This document shows, one piece after another, positions 97 to 4,611 of a stretch of 21,167 nt of DNA; positions within the stretch are counted from its first letter, which is position 1, and each line of letters starts with the position of its first letter. Under the pieces are notes generated by a model. It did not search any database and was not told where the DNA came from. It was given only the letters and a program-made list of their open reading frames with translations. This DNA comes from a virus, in the IMG/VR virus record IMGVR_UViG_3300032048_000022, positions 1 through 21,167 of that record. The stretch is one strand, 5' to 3'. The translations under genes were made by a program, and so were the position numbers.

Positions 97-2356
97 AATT
101 TTGACTCGCCCACAATTGATACATTGAGGCTCCTCCTGGTTGGGCTGCATTTCCACCTGGCCATGCATAAGCACCCATATCAATAACTTCCGGTGCAGTA
201 AAAATATTATATTGACTAGATGCGTCGGTATTATTAGTAACATTTCCACCACCACCATTAGCACCGCCACCCAAATTATAATTAAACATCGCATGTTGTA
301 ATGCATTAATTCCAGCAGAAACAGTATCGAATTGGAAACTCGTTAGATCTTTTAGGCCAGTTTTAATCTTTATGTTTTTTCCTTTTGTAAATGTTCCACC
401 ACTCATAGCAGCGTCTATAGCTTGTGCACCCCATGCAAAATCTTCGGCCAAATCACTAAAATTAGGGCCGGCGGACATGTTGCCAAGCTTATTATATGAA
501 TTAAGTACTTTAACTACAGATTCAATACCAGCTGCAGCTGCATCCATTTCAGTTGGATTAATATCTGTACCTAATCTCTTCATAGGTTCAACAATACCTA
601 ATATTAATTTTGCCATACCAGTTTCACCAGTATCTACATCATCTTTCCAAAACAATACAAAATTCTTTAAACCTTGCCATGCATCTTGAGCTTTATCAAC
701 TCCTTCAGTTAAAGCAGTAACAGCCATTAATTCTGCAAGACCTAAACCTAATTTAGCCATACCACCACCAACACGCATTAGATTCCCACCATCAACATCA
801 TTATATGCATTCATACCTTCTGCCATATTTGACATTATATCTTTTAGACCAGTGCCATCAACACCAATAGCTTTCATTATTGCACCTATACCAGCCATAC
901 CACTAAAGAAACCACCAATACCAGCACCCATTGCAGTCATACCTGCAGCTGCAATACCAGAACCAACTGGACCTAAAATTGCACCAGCTCCAATAAATCC
1001 TGCTAAAGCTAATTGTTGCTTTTCAGTAAATGCACCCATGCCTGCTGCAATATTTGAAGCTTGTTCTTTAAATGCTGCACCATCGGCTCCAACTAAAGAA
1101 CCAAGTTTACTTGCAGCAGAAATACCAACCATAAAACCGCCAATACCAGCACCCATGATTGATGCACCTAATGCAGCTGTTGCAGCTGCTCTAATACCAC
1201 CTTTCCCAGCTGGGCCTTTACCCATAGTTAAAGCAACACCACCTGCAACTATTATACCTAATGTAGTTAATGTAACAGCATTAAGACTTTCTAATTCTTT
1301 AAGTGCTGCTACAGTATTTACTGCTTGGTCTTTAAATTCTGAACCTGTAAATTTTGTTATTGAACCTGCCGCTGCAATACCTGACATAAAGCCACCAATT
1401 GCAGCACCACCTAAAGCTGCACCAGTAGCAGCTTTACTTGCTAAAAGAATTCCTTTTTTACCTGATAAAACTGCACCACCTGCAGCAATAACACCTAAAG
1501 TTATCATTTGTGCATCGCTTACTTTACCAAGATTTTCTAATGCCTCAGCTAAATCCGCAGCGTTATCTTTAAATGTTGTACCATCAAAACCTGTTAAAGA
1601 ACCTGCTGCTGCGATACCTGACATAAAACCACCGATACCTGCTCCCATTGCAGTCATACCAAGCGCTGCTTTAGAGGCTTTTCCAACACCACCAACCATT
1701 CCTAAGAATGCACCACCAGCCAACATTACACCTAATGTGGCTATGGATGTAGTACTCATTGAACCAAAATGTTCCCAACCTTCAGAGATATTTTTTGCTT
1801 GTTCAGGGAAATTTTCACCTCTAAATGCTTTTACATTTGACCAAACCATTAAGCCACTCATAAAGGCGCCAATACCTAAACCCATTAAACCCATACCAGC
1901 AGCACCTTTTGCTGCTTTACCTAAGAAACTAGATTTAGAGGCTTCTGATTTATCTTTCTTTTTATCTTTTTTGTCTTTATCTTTCTCTCTTTTTTCTTCT
2001 TCCTCATCACCTTTTTTCTTTTCAAAAATACCATAAATCTTATCAACTGCCTCTAGTATTTTTTTGGTATCTGACCCTATTTCTTGTTGAGTGGAATATC
2101 TAGAACCTTCATCTTGCATCTTTTGGTCAGCAATTGTTTTAGCTTGACCTGCTAGGAACCTACGTTGGAAAGCCTCTCCAGCTGAAATCATTGAAGAACC
2201 TTGTTCTTCTTGAACTTCTTGACCTAGTGCTATTTTTTCGGCATGTTGTTGAGCTTCTCTTTCGCGAAGCATATCCTTAGCACTTGCTTTATTAAGTTTC
2301 TTTAATTCAGCAATTACTTTATTAATACCTGCGACTTCTTGTGGTTTCTCAGCCAT
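95..2356 (-). CDS. Probable tail tape-measure protein (gp29-like position) with five ~80-aa repeats
   Basis: This is a 753-aa protein. Residues 1-110 are mostly helical and charged (start MAEKPQEVAGINKVIAELKK). Residues 112-141 are a Lys/Glu/Asp low-complexity linker. Residues ~148-546 are five tandem ~80-residue units, each with a Gly/Ala-rich hydrophobic segment of the form GAGIGGFMSG, an amphipathic FKDQA-like stretch and a second hydrophobic segment. The C-terminus has a GGGANGGGGNVTNNT linker and a Trp/Gly-rich tail. Function is inferred from length, the hydrophobic helical character usual in tape measures, and position directly after a tube-fold gene and a frameshifted chaperone-like gene. 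T4 gp29 is 590 aa. I see no specific gp29 motif, so a different hub or injected virion protein remains possible. The start at 2356 has AAGGAAAA upstream and overlaps the end of the gp26 -1 frame by 8 nt. Confidence 0.65.
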   Translation of the reverse strand: MAEKPQEVAGINKVIAELKKLNKASAKDMLREREAQQHAEKIALGQEVQEEQGSSMISAGEAFQRRFLAGQAKTIADQKMQDEGSRYSTQQEIGSDTKKILEAVDKIYGIFEKKKGDEEEEKREKDKDKKDKKKDKSEASKSSFLGKAAKGAAGMGLMGLGIGAFMSGLMVWSNVKAFRGENFPEQAKNISEGWEHFGSMSTTSIATLGVMLAGGAFLGMVGGVGKASKAALGMTAMGAGIGGFMSGIAAAGSLTGFDGTTFKDNAADLAEALENLGKVSDAQMITLGVIAAGGAVLSGKKGILLASKAATGAALGGAAIGGFMSGIAAAGSITKFTGSEFKDQAVNTVAALKELESLNAVTLTTLGIIVAGGVALTMGKGPAGKGGIRAAATAALGASIMGAGIGGFMVGISAASKLGSLVGADGAAFKEQASNIAAGMGAFTEKQQLALAGFIGAGAILGPVGSGIAAAGMTAMGAGIGGFFSGMAGIGAIMKAIGVDGTGLKDIMSNMAEGMNAYNDVDGGNLMRVGGGMAKLGLGLAELMAVTALTEGVDKAQDAWQGLKNFVLFWKDDVDTGETGMAKLILGIVEPMKRLGTDINPTEMDAAAAGIESVVKVLNSYNKLGNMSAGPNFSDLAEDFAWGAQAIDAAMSGGTFTKGKNIKIKTGLKDLTSFQFDTVSAGINALQHAMFNYNLGGGANGGGGNVTNNTDASSQYNIFTAPEVIDMGAYAWPGGNAAQPGGASMYQLWASQN
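719..1915 (-). repeat. Five tandem ~80-residue repeats inside the tape-measure-like gene
   Basis: The units are approximately residues 148-228, 229-307, 308-391, 392-471 and 472-546. Each starts with a segment of the form G-(A/L)-G-I-G-(G/A)-F-(M/F)-x-G. This is followed ~20 residues later by F/L-K-(D/E)-x-x-x-N and then by a second hydrophobic Gly/Ala segment such as TLGVIAAGGAVL. Units 2 and 3 are the most alike; unit 5 is the most diverged at its end. The repeat is clear in protein; the DNA copies have diverged. Confidence 0.8.
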
Positions 2357-3223
2357 ATTTACTATTTTCCTTGTTTCGTTCCTCTATCCATTGCGTTAAA
2401 AGGGTAACATATATCTCCCTTTCCCACGGTAACATATTATTCAAATCATCTAATTGAAAATTATGTTGATGCATTAAAGCAAAATTTGTCTTATAATGCG
2501 TCGTTATTGAATCATGCGAAAGGGCTATTGAAAAAAATCAGCTAGTCCTTTTAATTCTACTTCGTTCTTTTCCCCACACTTTTTACATGTGAATTTTATA
2601 TCATAACTAACGTATGGTGTCTTCATGAGCAATTCCATAATTTTACCAAATTGAAATGAACTTAAACTTTCAACAAATTCAAGTACTTCATCAAATGGTA
2701 CATCCTTTGTTGAATGTATTTCTTCACCATGAAAAATTGTACCAATTGATTTAGCAATCATATGAATAAGAACTTCTGTACCAGTTTCAGCTTTTGCAGT
2801 CCTATCACTCATAGTTGGCCAACGTAATTCAATTGTCATATTATCATCAAGCTTTAACTGAAGATCTTTATTATCAAAATCTAAATTCTTAATTTCTAAT
2901 TTATCTAAATTAATCTTTACTTCATTTTTAGTTTCACATTTTTCACATGGTATAAGTAATTCTATTCCTTCACCTACACTTCTAGCACGTAATGTTAAAA
3001 ATATAAATTCAATATCAAATCCTGTTAAATCTTCTAACTTAACATTATCTAAACATGAACGAATTATATCACTAATTGCTTGCTCAATTTGTACATCATC
3101 TTGAGATTCCATTGCTATTAACAATAATTTCTCTTCTTTGACCACGTATGGTCTATATGTTATAGTATCACCTGTTGAAGGCACAATCATATCATACTTT
3201 GGGGTTGCTAATTTTGGCAACAT
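2349..3223 (-). CDS. gp26 extended by a -1 frameshift (gpGT-like tail-assembly chaperone form), 291 aa predicted
   Basis: This is the predicted product of -1 slippage on the heptamer at 2531-2537. The first 231 residues are gp26. A 60-residue extension then begins SIALSHDSITTHYKTNFALM, contains LDDLNNMLPWEREIYV and ends NKENSKYG, with stop TGA at 2349-2351. The extension frame is closed by TGA (2538-2540) immediately upstream of the slippery run. It has no Shine-Dalgarno before its only internal ATG (2474), so frameshifting is the simplest way to express it. By analogy with lambda gpG/gpGT, the long form would bridge tape measure and tube subunits during tail assembly. The slippery site, the open frame and the position are seen directly; the chaperone role is inferred. 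Confidence 0.7.
2525..3223 (-). CDS. 26: gp26-like baseplate/tail-assembly protein (T4_baseplate family), unshifted form
   Basis: This is a 232-aa protein, close to the size of T4 gp26 (208 aa). The central stretch FDIEFIFLTLRARSVGEGIE (residues 69-88) is the family hallmark I recognise from T4-like gp26/gp51 proteins. Two CxxC pairs, C93-E-K-C96 and C213-K-K-C216, each followed by a KNEV-type strand, could form one metal site. In T4, gp26 is classed as a baseplate hub protein. Here the gene lies between a tube-fold gene and the tape measure and carries a frameshift site at its end, which argues for a tail-assembly chaperone role. The start at 3223 is preceded by GGAGAAAG. It follows the gp54-like gene by 24 nt in the leftward operon. 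Confidence 0.8.
   Translation of the reverse strand: MLPKLATPKYDMIVPSTGDTITYRPYVVKEEKLLLIAMESQDDVQIEQAISDIIRSCLDNVKLEDLTGFDIEFIFLTLRARSVGEGIELLIPCEKCETKNEVKINLDKLEIKNLDFDNKDLQLKLDDNMTIELRWPTMSDRTAKAETGTEVLIHMIAKSIGTIFHGEEIHSTKDVPFDEVLEFVESLSSFQFGKIMELLMKTPYVSYDIKFTCKKCGEKNEVELKGLADFFQ
2531..2537 (-). promoter_or_regulatory. Slippery heptamer T TTT TTT for -1 programmed frameshifting
   Basis: On the minus strand the gp26 frame reads GCT GAT TTT TTT CAA TAG. The seven Ts are positioned exactly as X XXY YYZ for -1 slippage and give TTT TTT TCA ATA in the new frame. The -1 frame has a stop (TGA, 2538-2540) touching the 5' side, and the 0 frame stops at 2525-2527, so the only possible window is about 12 nt and is filled by the heptamer. 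An AAGGA at 2546-2550, 8 nt upstream, resembles the Shine-Dalgarno stimulator seen at dnaX. Confidence 0.75.
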
Positions 3224-3247: not shown

Positions 3248-4030
3248 TTAACTTATTTGTCCACCACCCAACGCGGCGAATCTCCTTTTATCTGCAGCTA
3301 ATTTTTCTAAATTTAGATGCTCTGTTTTCGGACTTGATGCAACTGGTGTTTTTATCTTAGTAGCTTTTAATGAATCTAATAAAGATCCAAAAACACCTTG
3401 AATTCCATCTACAAATCCAACGCTTCTCCAATTATCATATTCCCATGTAACAGTTACTTCTAATAAACCTTCACTTCCATTACCTAATTCAATAGCTGCA
3501 AGTTGTATAGGATATGCATTCTCTAACTTAACTGTATATCCGGGAATTATATCATTAGATGTAGATAACTGTTGTATAGTTACATCACTACAATAATCTC
3601 TTTTATAATATGCTTTAAAATGTTCATGTGTACTATCAATAATCATTTCTTGCCACATATCAAAATACTTTTTAATATAATAATCATTTGTTAATAAAAA
3701 TGTCATAGATACTTCATCTGTCATCATTGAATATGGTTTCTTTGTCATATGATGATTATGAGTAGCTTCAGTTGTAGTTATTCGTTTACCAGGAAGTGTA
3801 CAAGTTTGACATAGTAAAAACATATCTCTTGGGTCACTAATAAAATCTCCTATATGTATACCATCGCCAGATATTAAATTATTAAGTAATGTTGCAGGGT
3901 CAAACTTTAATAAGCTATTCATACCCTTTGAAGGATGAGAAACATATACTGCATATCTATTTCCACGTGCTACACCACCACGACGATTAATCGTTGACTT
4001 AATTGAATCTATACTTACTGGTAATGACAT
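3248..4030 (-). CDS. 54: Tail-tube-fold protein, probable baseplate tail-tube initiator (gp54-like)
   Basis: This is a 260-aa protein. The central and C-terminal parts show the gp19/gp54-type tube pattern: CTLPGKRITTTE (residues 77-88), MTFLLTNDYYIKKYFDMWQE (109-128) and, near residues 173-201, YPIQLAAIEL followed by EVTVTWEYDNW. The length is nearer to gp54 (320 aa) than to gp19 (163 aa). gp54 starts tube polymerisation on the hub next to the gp48 cap, which is encoded divergently here. A longer start at 4057 is possible, but ATG 4030 is preferred: AAGGAG lies ~8 nt upstream, and it overlaps the previous stop as TAATG. An atypical tail-tube protein is the main alternative. Confidence 0.6.
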   Translation of the reverse strand: MSLPVSIDSIKSTINRRGGVARGNRYAVYVSHPSKGMNSLLKFDPATLLNNLISGDGIHIGDFISDPRDMFLLCQTCTLPGKRITTTEATHNHHMTKKPYSMMTDEVSMTFLLTNDYYIKKYFDMWQEMIIDSTHEHFKAYYKRDYCSDVTIQQLSTSNDIIPGYTVKLENAYPIQLAAIELGNGSEGLLEVTVTWEYDNWRSVGFVDGIQGVFGSLLDSLKATKIKTPVASSPKTEHLNLEKLAADKRRFAALGGGQIS

Positions 4031-4611
4031 TAATATTGTCTCCTTGATGCAGCCCAAATATAACTTTCTGTTTTCTTCTTAAATTGGGCTGTTTGTAAAA
4101 ATATTGCTATGTTCCATTCAGCAGCATCTACCTTCATTATTTTTGAACCTACATGCTTCGTAAGATAATGCTTAAAACATGGTTTAAAGTATTTATATTT
4201 CTTAGCTGCTTTTAATAAATTATATGTAATTCTAAATCTAGTTGTTTTATCAAATTTTTGATTAGATGCAGCAGCATTTAAATTATCTAAAAATATAGCA
4301 CGAATTTTAGGTGGTAAATAATGTAAGTTAATACCAAAAAAACCACCTGGCGCAGGACCAACCATAATCGTTAAAGGAAACATATCATAGTATGGCAAAG
4401 TCATTTTTAACTTTGGATTATATGTATACATTATCATATCACCAATTATAGGTCTAGCTTTTGCTGTTAATCTATCATCTTTAAGAACATTCCTTCCTAA
4501 TGGTCCAAGCTCTTTTGCTTTTTTTTCAAACCATGCTGAAGCTTCTCTTGAACGAGCTGTTATTCCCTTACGGAATGCTTCTGATTCTAACTTATCGAAT
4601 AAACTGGCCAT
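4030..4611 (-). CDS. Conserved T4-like morphogenesis protein, 193 aa (possibly gp2-like DNA-end protector)
   Basis: This is a basic protein with a compact core at residues ~57-101 (IGDMIMYTYNPKLKMTLPYY, then MFPL, then FGINLHYLPPK). I recognise this as a widespread family in marine T4-like phages. In T4 the gene next to 4 on the same strand is 2, which fits a gp2-type role protecting DNA ends in the filled head, but T4 gp2 is longer (274 aa) and I see no decisive motif. The C-terminus is Lys/Arg/aromatic-rich. The ATG has an exact late promoter 5 nt upstream and no usable Shine-Dalgarno. Its stop overlaps the next gene's start by one base. Confidence 0.5.
   Translation of the reverse strand: MASLFDKLESEAFRKGITARSREASAWFEKKAKELGPLGRNVLKDDRLTAKARPIIGDMIMYTYNPKLKMTLPYYDMFPLTIMVGPAPGGFFGINLHYLPPKIRAIFLDNLNAAASNQKFDKTTRFRITYNLLKAAKKYKYFKPCFKHYLTKHVGSKIMKVDAAEWNIAIFLQTAQFKKKTESYIWAASRRQY

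Follow-up and report, generated by a model that had tools for sequence, protein, structure and literature searches.

In phage lambda the slippery sequence of the G/GT frameshift is G GGA AAG. Vladimirov and colleagues reportedly identified the tail assembly chaperone (TAC) genes of T4-like phages in 2022, several T4-like groups being said to use frameshifting and T4 itself to use genes 26 and 51 as TAC genes. According to Atkins et al. (2016; PMC5009743), conservation of the G-T frameshift is wide among phages with long tails, 'except T4'. Poly-T runs are given as known -1 signals in the TAC genes of T4-like phages in a passage of PMC12846349, and some T4-like phages carry a short gene and a long gene instead, according to a passage of PMC10885494. 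Cyanophage gp51 has about 20% of the length of non-cyanophage gp51 and lacks the first ~200 residues (Sullivan et al., 2010; PMC3037559). Here we describe a gp26-like gene of a marine T4-like phage in IMG/VR virus record IMGVR_UViG_3300032048_000022 (positions 1 to 21,167; this whole stretch of 21,167 nucleotides is hereafter called the window), in which, as judged from the sequence, a programmed -1 frameshift at a T TTT TTT heptamer very probably yields two chaperones, TAC-N (232 aa) and TAC-NC (291 aa).

The slip site and the -1 reading frame

The gp26-like gene, on the minus strand, ends in GAT(2539-2537) TTT TTT(2533-2531) CAA TAG(2527-2525), its 0-frame stop TAG lying 3 nt past the heptamer (Table 1). 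A -1-frame TGA abuts the heptamer on the 5' side, an arrangement found in 38 of the 53 representative relatives that were used for the site, start-codon and selection counts. Since the heptamer is hemmed by this TGA and by the TAG on its 3' side, a shift into the -1-frame extension is confined to the heptamer or to one codon beyond it. The extension overlaps the next gene (ATG 2356) by 8 nt, and its first ATG, at 2474, has no Shine-Dalgarno (SD) sequence. By sequence, the fused product comprises 231 + 60 = 291 aa and the unshifted product 232 aa. An earlier sequence-only reading of the window had already placed the heptamer, the abutting TGA, the 60-codon frame, the 8-nt overlap and the first ATG without SD, all of them correctly, base for base.

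The first survey covered 80 IMG/VR loci and six phages, all 86 of which have an in-frame TTTTTTT or TTTTTTC together with a homologous -1 extension, and two further scans extended the set. In-frame TTTTTTN is present in 187/187 single-copy relatives scanned; 186 of these loci correspond to 149 distinct extensions (TTTTTTC 87, TTTTTTT 60, TTTTTTG 1 and TTTTTTA 1), and L208 is the 187th. The heptamer is also kept in 14/14 held-out loci. In-frame T6N occurs at the site in 53/53 representatives versus 3 times elsewhere across the same 53 gp26 genes, and this count and the conservation rule out a chance T run. Sequencing error as the origin of the run is likewise ruled out, the run being present in independent loci and isolates. 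TTTTTTN in phase is found further in Pseudomonas Astolliot, Pootjesviridae, Mendera, phiW-14, Aeromonas Ahp1, Schizotequatrovirus PVA8 and XG4; Klebsiella P545 gp26 and two Ackermannviridae were checked and have no in-frame heptamer. Inspection of the alignment, unscored, gave no conserved SD-like stimulator upstream of the heptamer, the codon preceding Gly being variable. L208 was rejected as an exception to heptamer conservation: its gp26 has an internal in-frame stop at codon 163, which cut the scan short, and the heptamer is present in frame. The gp26 of L208 (match from 1201) is otherwise 99% identical to that of HTVC008M, and its codon-163 stop is probably an assembly or sequencing error, or possibly the mark of a broken gene.

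The gp26-like product matches PF12322 (E=1.5e-60) and phrog_150 (E=1.7e-63), and the -1 extension matches phrog_634, 'baseplate hub assembly catalyst' (gp51), with an E value of 2e-26. The frame that the sequence-only reading had called hidden, open over 60 codons as claimed, is that of gp51. In a tblastn search, the extension has matches in 574 phage records, mostly of cyanophages, where the gp51 piece is annotated as gp51, as hypothetical or not at all, and with differing starts; this uneven annotation is likely a systematic annotation error. Purifying selection is seen in the -1 frame only, with a dN/dS of 0.29 over 44 codons and zero stops, the other two frames having ~5.5 stops per sequence and ratios >1. 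The first 12-18 codons of the extension are conserved as protein and contain no start codon in most relatives of the window. In the 53 representatives, the first ATG/GTG/TTG mostly lies 17-19 codons into the extension, past conserved residues, and only one locus has an SD-like sequence ahead of it. The two-product interpretation of the sequence-only reading (232 and 291 aa) is by far the best account of the locus, being supported by the conserved heptamer, the selection in the -1 frame, the identity of the extension with gp51, the absence of a start codon from its conserved first part in most relatives of the window, the RNA stem phased behind a 6-nt spacer and the separate T4 genes for the two products, and the alignment of gp26 loci that it had proposed as a check finds both the slippery run and the -1 frame conserved. 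It had missed the gp51 identity, the prior publication in kind for T4-like phages and the RNA structure downstream.

T4 gp26 (208 aa) and gp51 (249 aa) both belong to PF12322 (8.8e-64 and 3.9e-52), and gp51 additionally matches PHROG 634. The unshifted product and T4 gp26 can be aligned almost end to end, T4 gp26 ending just past the FF of the slip site, and T4 gp51 matches the long product, its alignment running through the junction and on into the extension. At the slip position, T4 gene 26 reads GAG TTC TTT GAG, without a heptamer. There are two PF12322 copies in T4 and in P545, and one in each of 19 other phages searched, 17 of which have the heptamer; the two without it are the Ackermannviridae. 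The window being a 21-kb fragment, its virus may have a second PF12322 gene elsewhere in the genome.

RNA structure downstream of the heptamer

Two segments 86 nt apart on the predicted mRNA can pair into a long-range stem, the consensus of the 5' arm, CCCTTTCNCAY, being complementary to NTGGGAAAGGG. In the window, 10/11 positions can pair and G2517 x G2424 cannot. The 6-nt spacer falls within the range of about 5-9 nt expected of an RNA structure at a -1 frameshift site. Codons that are rare in gp26 are kept in the arms: Ala is GCC in 37/39 cases in the 5' arm versus 2% in gp26, Leu is CTT in 45/50 at the stem codons versus 12% in gp26, and Arg is AGG in 48/51 in the 3' arm versus 11% of gp26 Arg codons. 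Mean pairing in 49 sequences is 10.57 of 11, versus 7.59 (sd 0.19) for synonymous-codon draws and 8.43 (sd 0.15) for codon shuffles, and when the arms are permuted among sequences, 0/2000 permutations reach the observed pairing. Of the stem cells, 96.1% are paired, with 17 double-change cells versus 1.6 in shuffles, and pairing falls to 43-64% when the arms are slid by 1-3 columns; the related sequences are non-independent, and these figures are counts rather than probabilities. Across the 53 representatives, the z of the minimum free energy (MFE) of folding averages -4.26, the window alone having a z of -4.06 versus dinucleotide shuffles, and the RNAalifold consensus contains the long-range stem and nothing else. 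The 14 held-out loci, which were unused in the discovery of the stem, form 9-11 of the 11 pairs, and L281-L284 among them have a compensatory C-G to U-A change at a previously invariant pair. Rfam has no family at this location. From the sequence evidence, the stem most likely stimulates the slip.

The predicted structure differs among clades, its position being nearly constant. A P-SSM2-like clade has an 11-bp local hairpin after a 5-nt spacer (97.8% paired; 0/1000 column shuffles as good), one pair of which occurs in three states, T-A 9, A-T 8 and G-C 3. In L082 and its relatives (L156-L203), this three-state pair ties a synonymous change in an Ala codon to an E/V/A residue change. An ACG-2014h-like clade has a 9-bp hairpin after a 7-nt spacer (87.7% paired; 1/1000 shuffles as good). 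In a broader set, of 92 sequences, the fold z averages -2.24, with about half below -2, and the signal is not uniform. A putative competing hairpin is formed locally by the 3' arm, its downstream strand being codons 42-43 with Leu CTT in 40/49 sequences; it has a z of about -2.8 versus synonymous draws with the arm held fixed, and it forms in most sequences once the long-range stem is forbidden. This competing hairpin suggests a two-state RNA. Such an RNA might act as a switch, in which the stem stimulates the slip, the slipped ribosome opens the stem, and the 3' arm refolds into the local hairpin to delay re-formation of the stem. We regard this switch as doubtful, though conceivable; if true, frameshifting would be self-limiting and would keep the two chaperones, long and short, in a set ratio.

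Alternative explanations

The constraint on the codons downstream of the heptamer might have causes other than pairing, such as the competing local hairpin by itself, effects at the protein level or codon-pair effects, the heptamer being sufficient for the slip. Two things speak for this explanation: the 3' arm has a second, local partner strand downstream, and sites of the lambda type have mostly been described through the slippery sequence alone. The 5' arm is constrained as well, as its Ala codons indicate, the arm permutation and the double-change counts lie above their nulls, a compensatory change is found in held-out loci, and in other clades a local hairpin with three-state covariation lies about as far from the heptamer, which together make the explanation rather unlikely. 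RNA polymerase might instead slip on the T run, mixed mRNAs giving the two products; a run of seven identical bases could allow such slippage, and the AT-rich context suits it. Over half of the distinct relatives carry TTTTTTC, however, and others carry TTTTTTG or TTTTTTA; the X XXY YYZ phase is kept in every case, and the conserved stem is phased 6 nt downstream in the frame of the ribosome. Transcriptional slippage is very improbable against these observations.

In another explanation, gp51 is a separate short protein with its own start, used by re-initiation or by coupled translation once gp26 has terminated, and the overlap is incidental. Public records do annotate gp51 as a gene of its own, and an ATG at or near the gp26 stop (TAATG, TGATG) is found in Pootjesviridae, Mendera, phiW-14, PVA8, S-CRM01 and both Ackermannviridae. 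Most phages with such an ATG still keep the heptamer, however, and annotated starts vary among relatives. In the window and most of its close relatives, the first ATG/GTG/TTG is at least 12 codons into the extension, past conserved protein and without SD, and T4 carries the long fused product as one gene. A separately made gp51 is therefore very improbable as an account of the window. Stop-start overlaps of the TAATG/TGATG type at the gp26 end are seen in L090, L091, L092, L093, L095, L097, L098, L099 and L100, with or without the heptamer, and such clades may, to judge by these motifs, make a second gp51 product by re-initiation.

Several observations weigh against a programmed frameshift stimulated by the stem and yielding two chaperones. 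An ATG lies within the first 7 codons of the extension in 52/149 distinct relatives, so that gp51 could have a start of its own in those clades, to which the window does not belong. The two Ackermannviridae have one PF12322 gene, no in-frame heptamer and TAATG at the stop. The long-range stem is missing from the predicted fold in 3/53 representatives, and the cyanophages L082, L085 and L086 have local hairpins in place of it. The 753-aa open reading frame (ORF) downstream has no tblastn match in 50,697 phage records and no BLAST match in two relatives. The AlphaFold2 model of the short product (pLDDT 87; the rows of the structure-prediction job are IMG/VR loci only) has a weak resemblance to the HK97 chaperone and no significant PDB match: in a Foldseek search against PDB, the highest listed probability is that of the HK97 tail assembly chaperone 2ob9, 0.80, but with an E value of 0.75 over 62 columns. 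A search of solved structures by sequence returned nothing relevant.

Gene neighbourhood, proposed mechanism and known systems

Table 1. Features of the slip site and of the adjoining genes in the window
Feature	Position	Strand	Remarks
gp26-like gene	3223..2525	minus	232 aa, short product (TAC-N type)
-1-frame stop TGA	2540..2538	minus	immediately 5' of the heptamer
Slippery heptamer T TTT TTT	2537..2531	minus	X XXY YYZ register
Spacer CAATAG	2530..2525	minus	6 nt; contains the 0-frame stop TAG
-1-frame extension	2531..2349	minus	60 codons from TCA (2531) to 2352, stop TGA 2351..2349; gp51-type C-terminal domain
Stem 5' arm CCCTTTCGCAT	2524..2514	minus	begins 6 nt past the heptamer; rare codons GCC and CTT kept
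Stem 3' arm GTGGGAAAGGG	2427..2417	minus	within the PWERE codons
Competing local hairpin	2423..2398	minus	AAAGGG of the 3' arm with CCCTTT; putative, lower confidence
Downstream gene, 753 aa	95..2356	minus	candidate tape measure, judged by its position and its hydrophobic, Gly/Ala-rich composition alone
Tail tube / tube initiator-like gene	3248..4057	minus	phrog_45, E=7.7e-32; upstream of the gp26-like gene

The 753-aa ORF is unmatched although it lies inside a conserved tail gene block; in HTVC008M, a putative tape measure is annotated shortly downstream of gp51. The tube-initiator-like ORF as listed begins at TTG (window 4057, minus strand), and a likelier start is the ATG at 4030, which overlaps the preceding gene at its end.

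We infer slipping itself, its frequency, its stimulation by the stem and the chaperone role from sequence, and the events at the site might be as follows. Most ribosomes would read gp26 through to TAG to make the 232-aa TAC-N. Some would pause at T TTT TTT, where both tRNAs may slip back by one base, the TAG being bypassed, and the slipped ribosomes would make the 291-aa TAC-NC with the gp51-type C-terminal domain. The stem of ~10 pairs, predicted to join the two distant segments, would meet the entry side of the ribosome. By analogy with lambda gpG/gpGT, the short form may coat the tape measure protein, to which the long form may recruit tail tube subunits. Joining of gp26 to gp51 by frameshifting would account for the absence of the first ~200 residues from cyanophage gp51 (PMC3037559), which would be short because those residues are gp26. 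The annotation of gp26 and gp51 as two independent genes would then be in error in many marine phages. A conserved, covarying RNA element of at least two architectures makes control of the chaperone ratio testable.

T4 genes 26 and 51 are like the window gene in that both belong to PF12322, gp26 corresponding to the unshifted and gp51 to the shifted product, and unlike it in that they are two separate, divergent genes, gene 26 being without the heptamer. The TAC frameshift of T4-like phages (Vladimirov et al., 2022) shares with the window the gp26/gp51 family, a poly-T slippery signal, and short and long products; the passages that cite it mention no downstream RNA structure, and the window phage is an uncultivated marine relative. 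The TAC gene of Vandenendeviridae/Andersonviridae (phage Adele; PMC12846349) also has a -1 slip on a T run at its end, with an extension open in every genome, although this is a different phage group and the TAC passage of that paper contains no RNA stem. Lambda G/GT resembles the window in a -1 slip near the end of a chaperone gene that directly precedes the tape measure gene (here presumed), whereas the window has T TTT TTT and a conserved stem, no sequence similarity being expected. Set beside these systems, the frameshift itself, which comes through all of the sequence-based tests made of it, is known in kind, and the conserved long-range stem, which was not found described, seems to be the new part.

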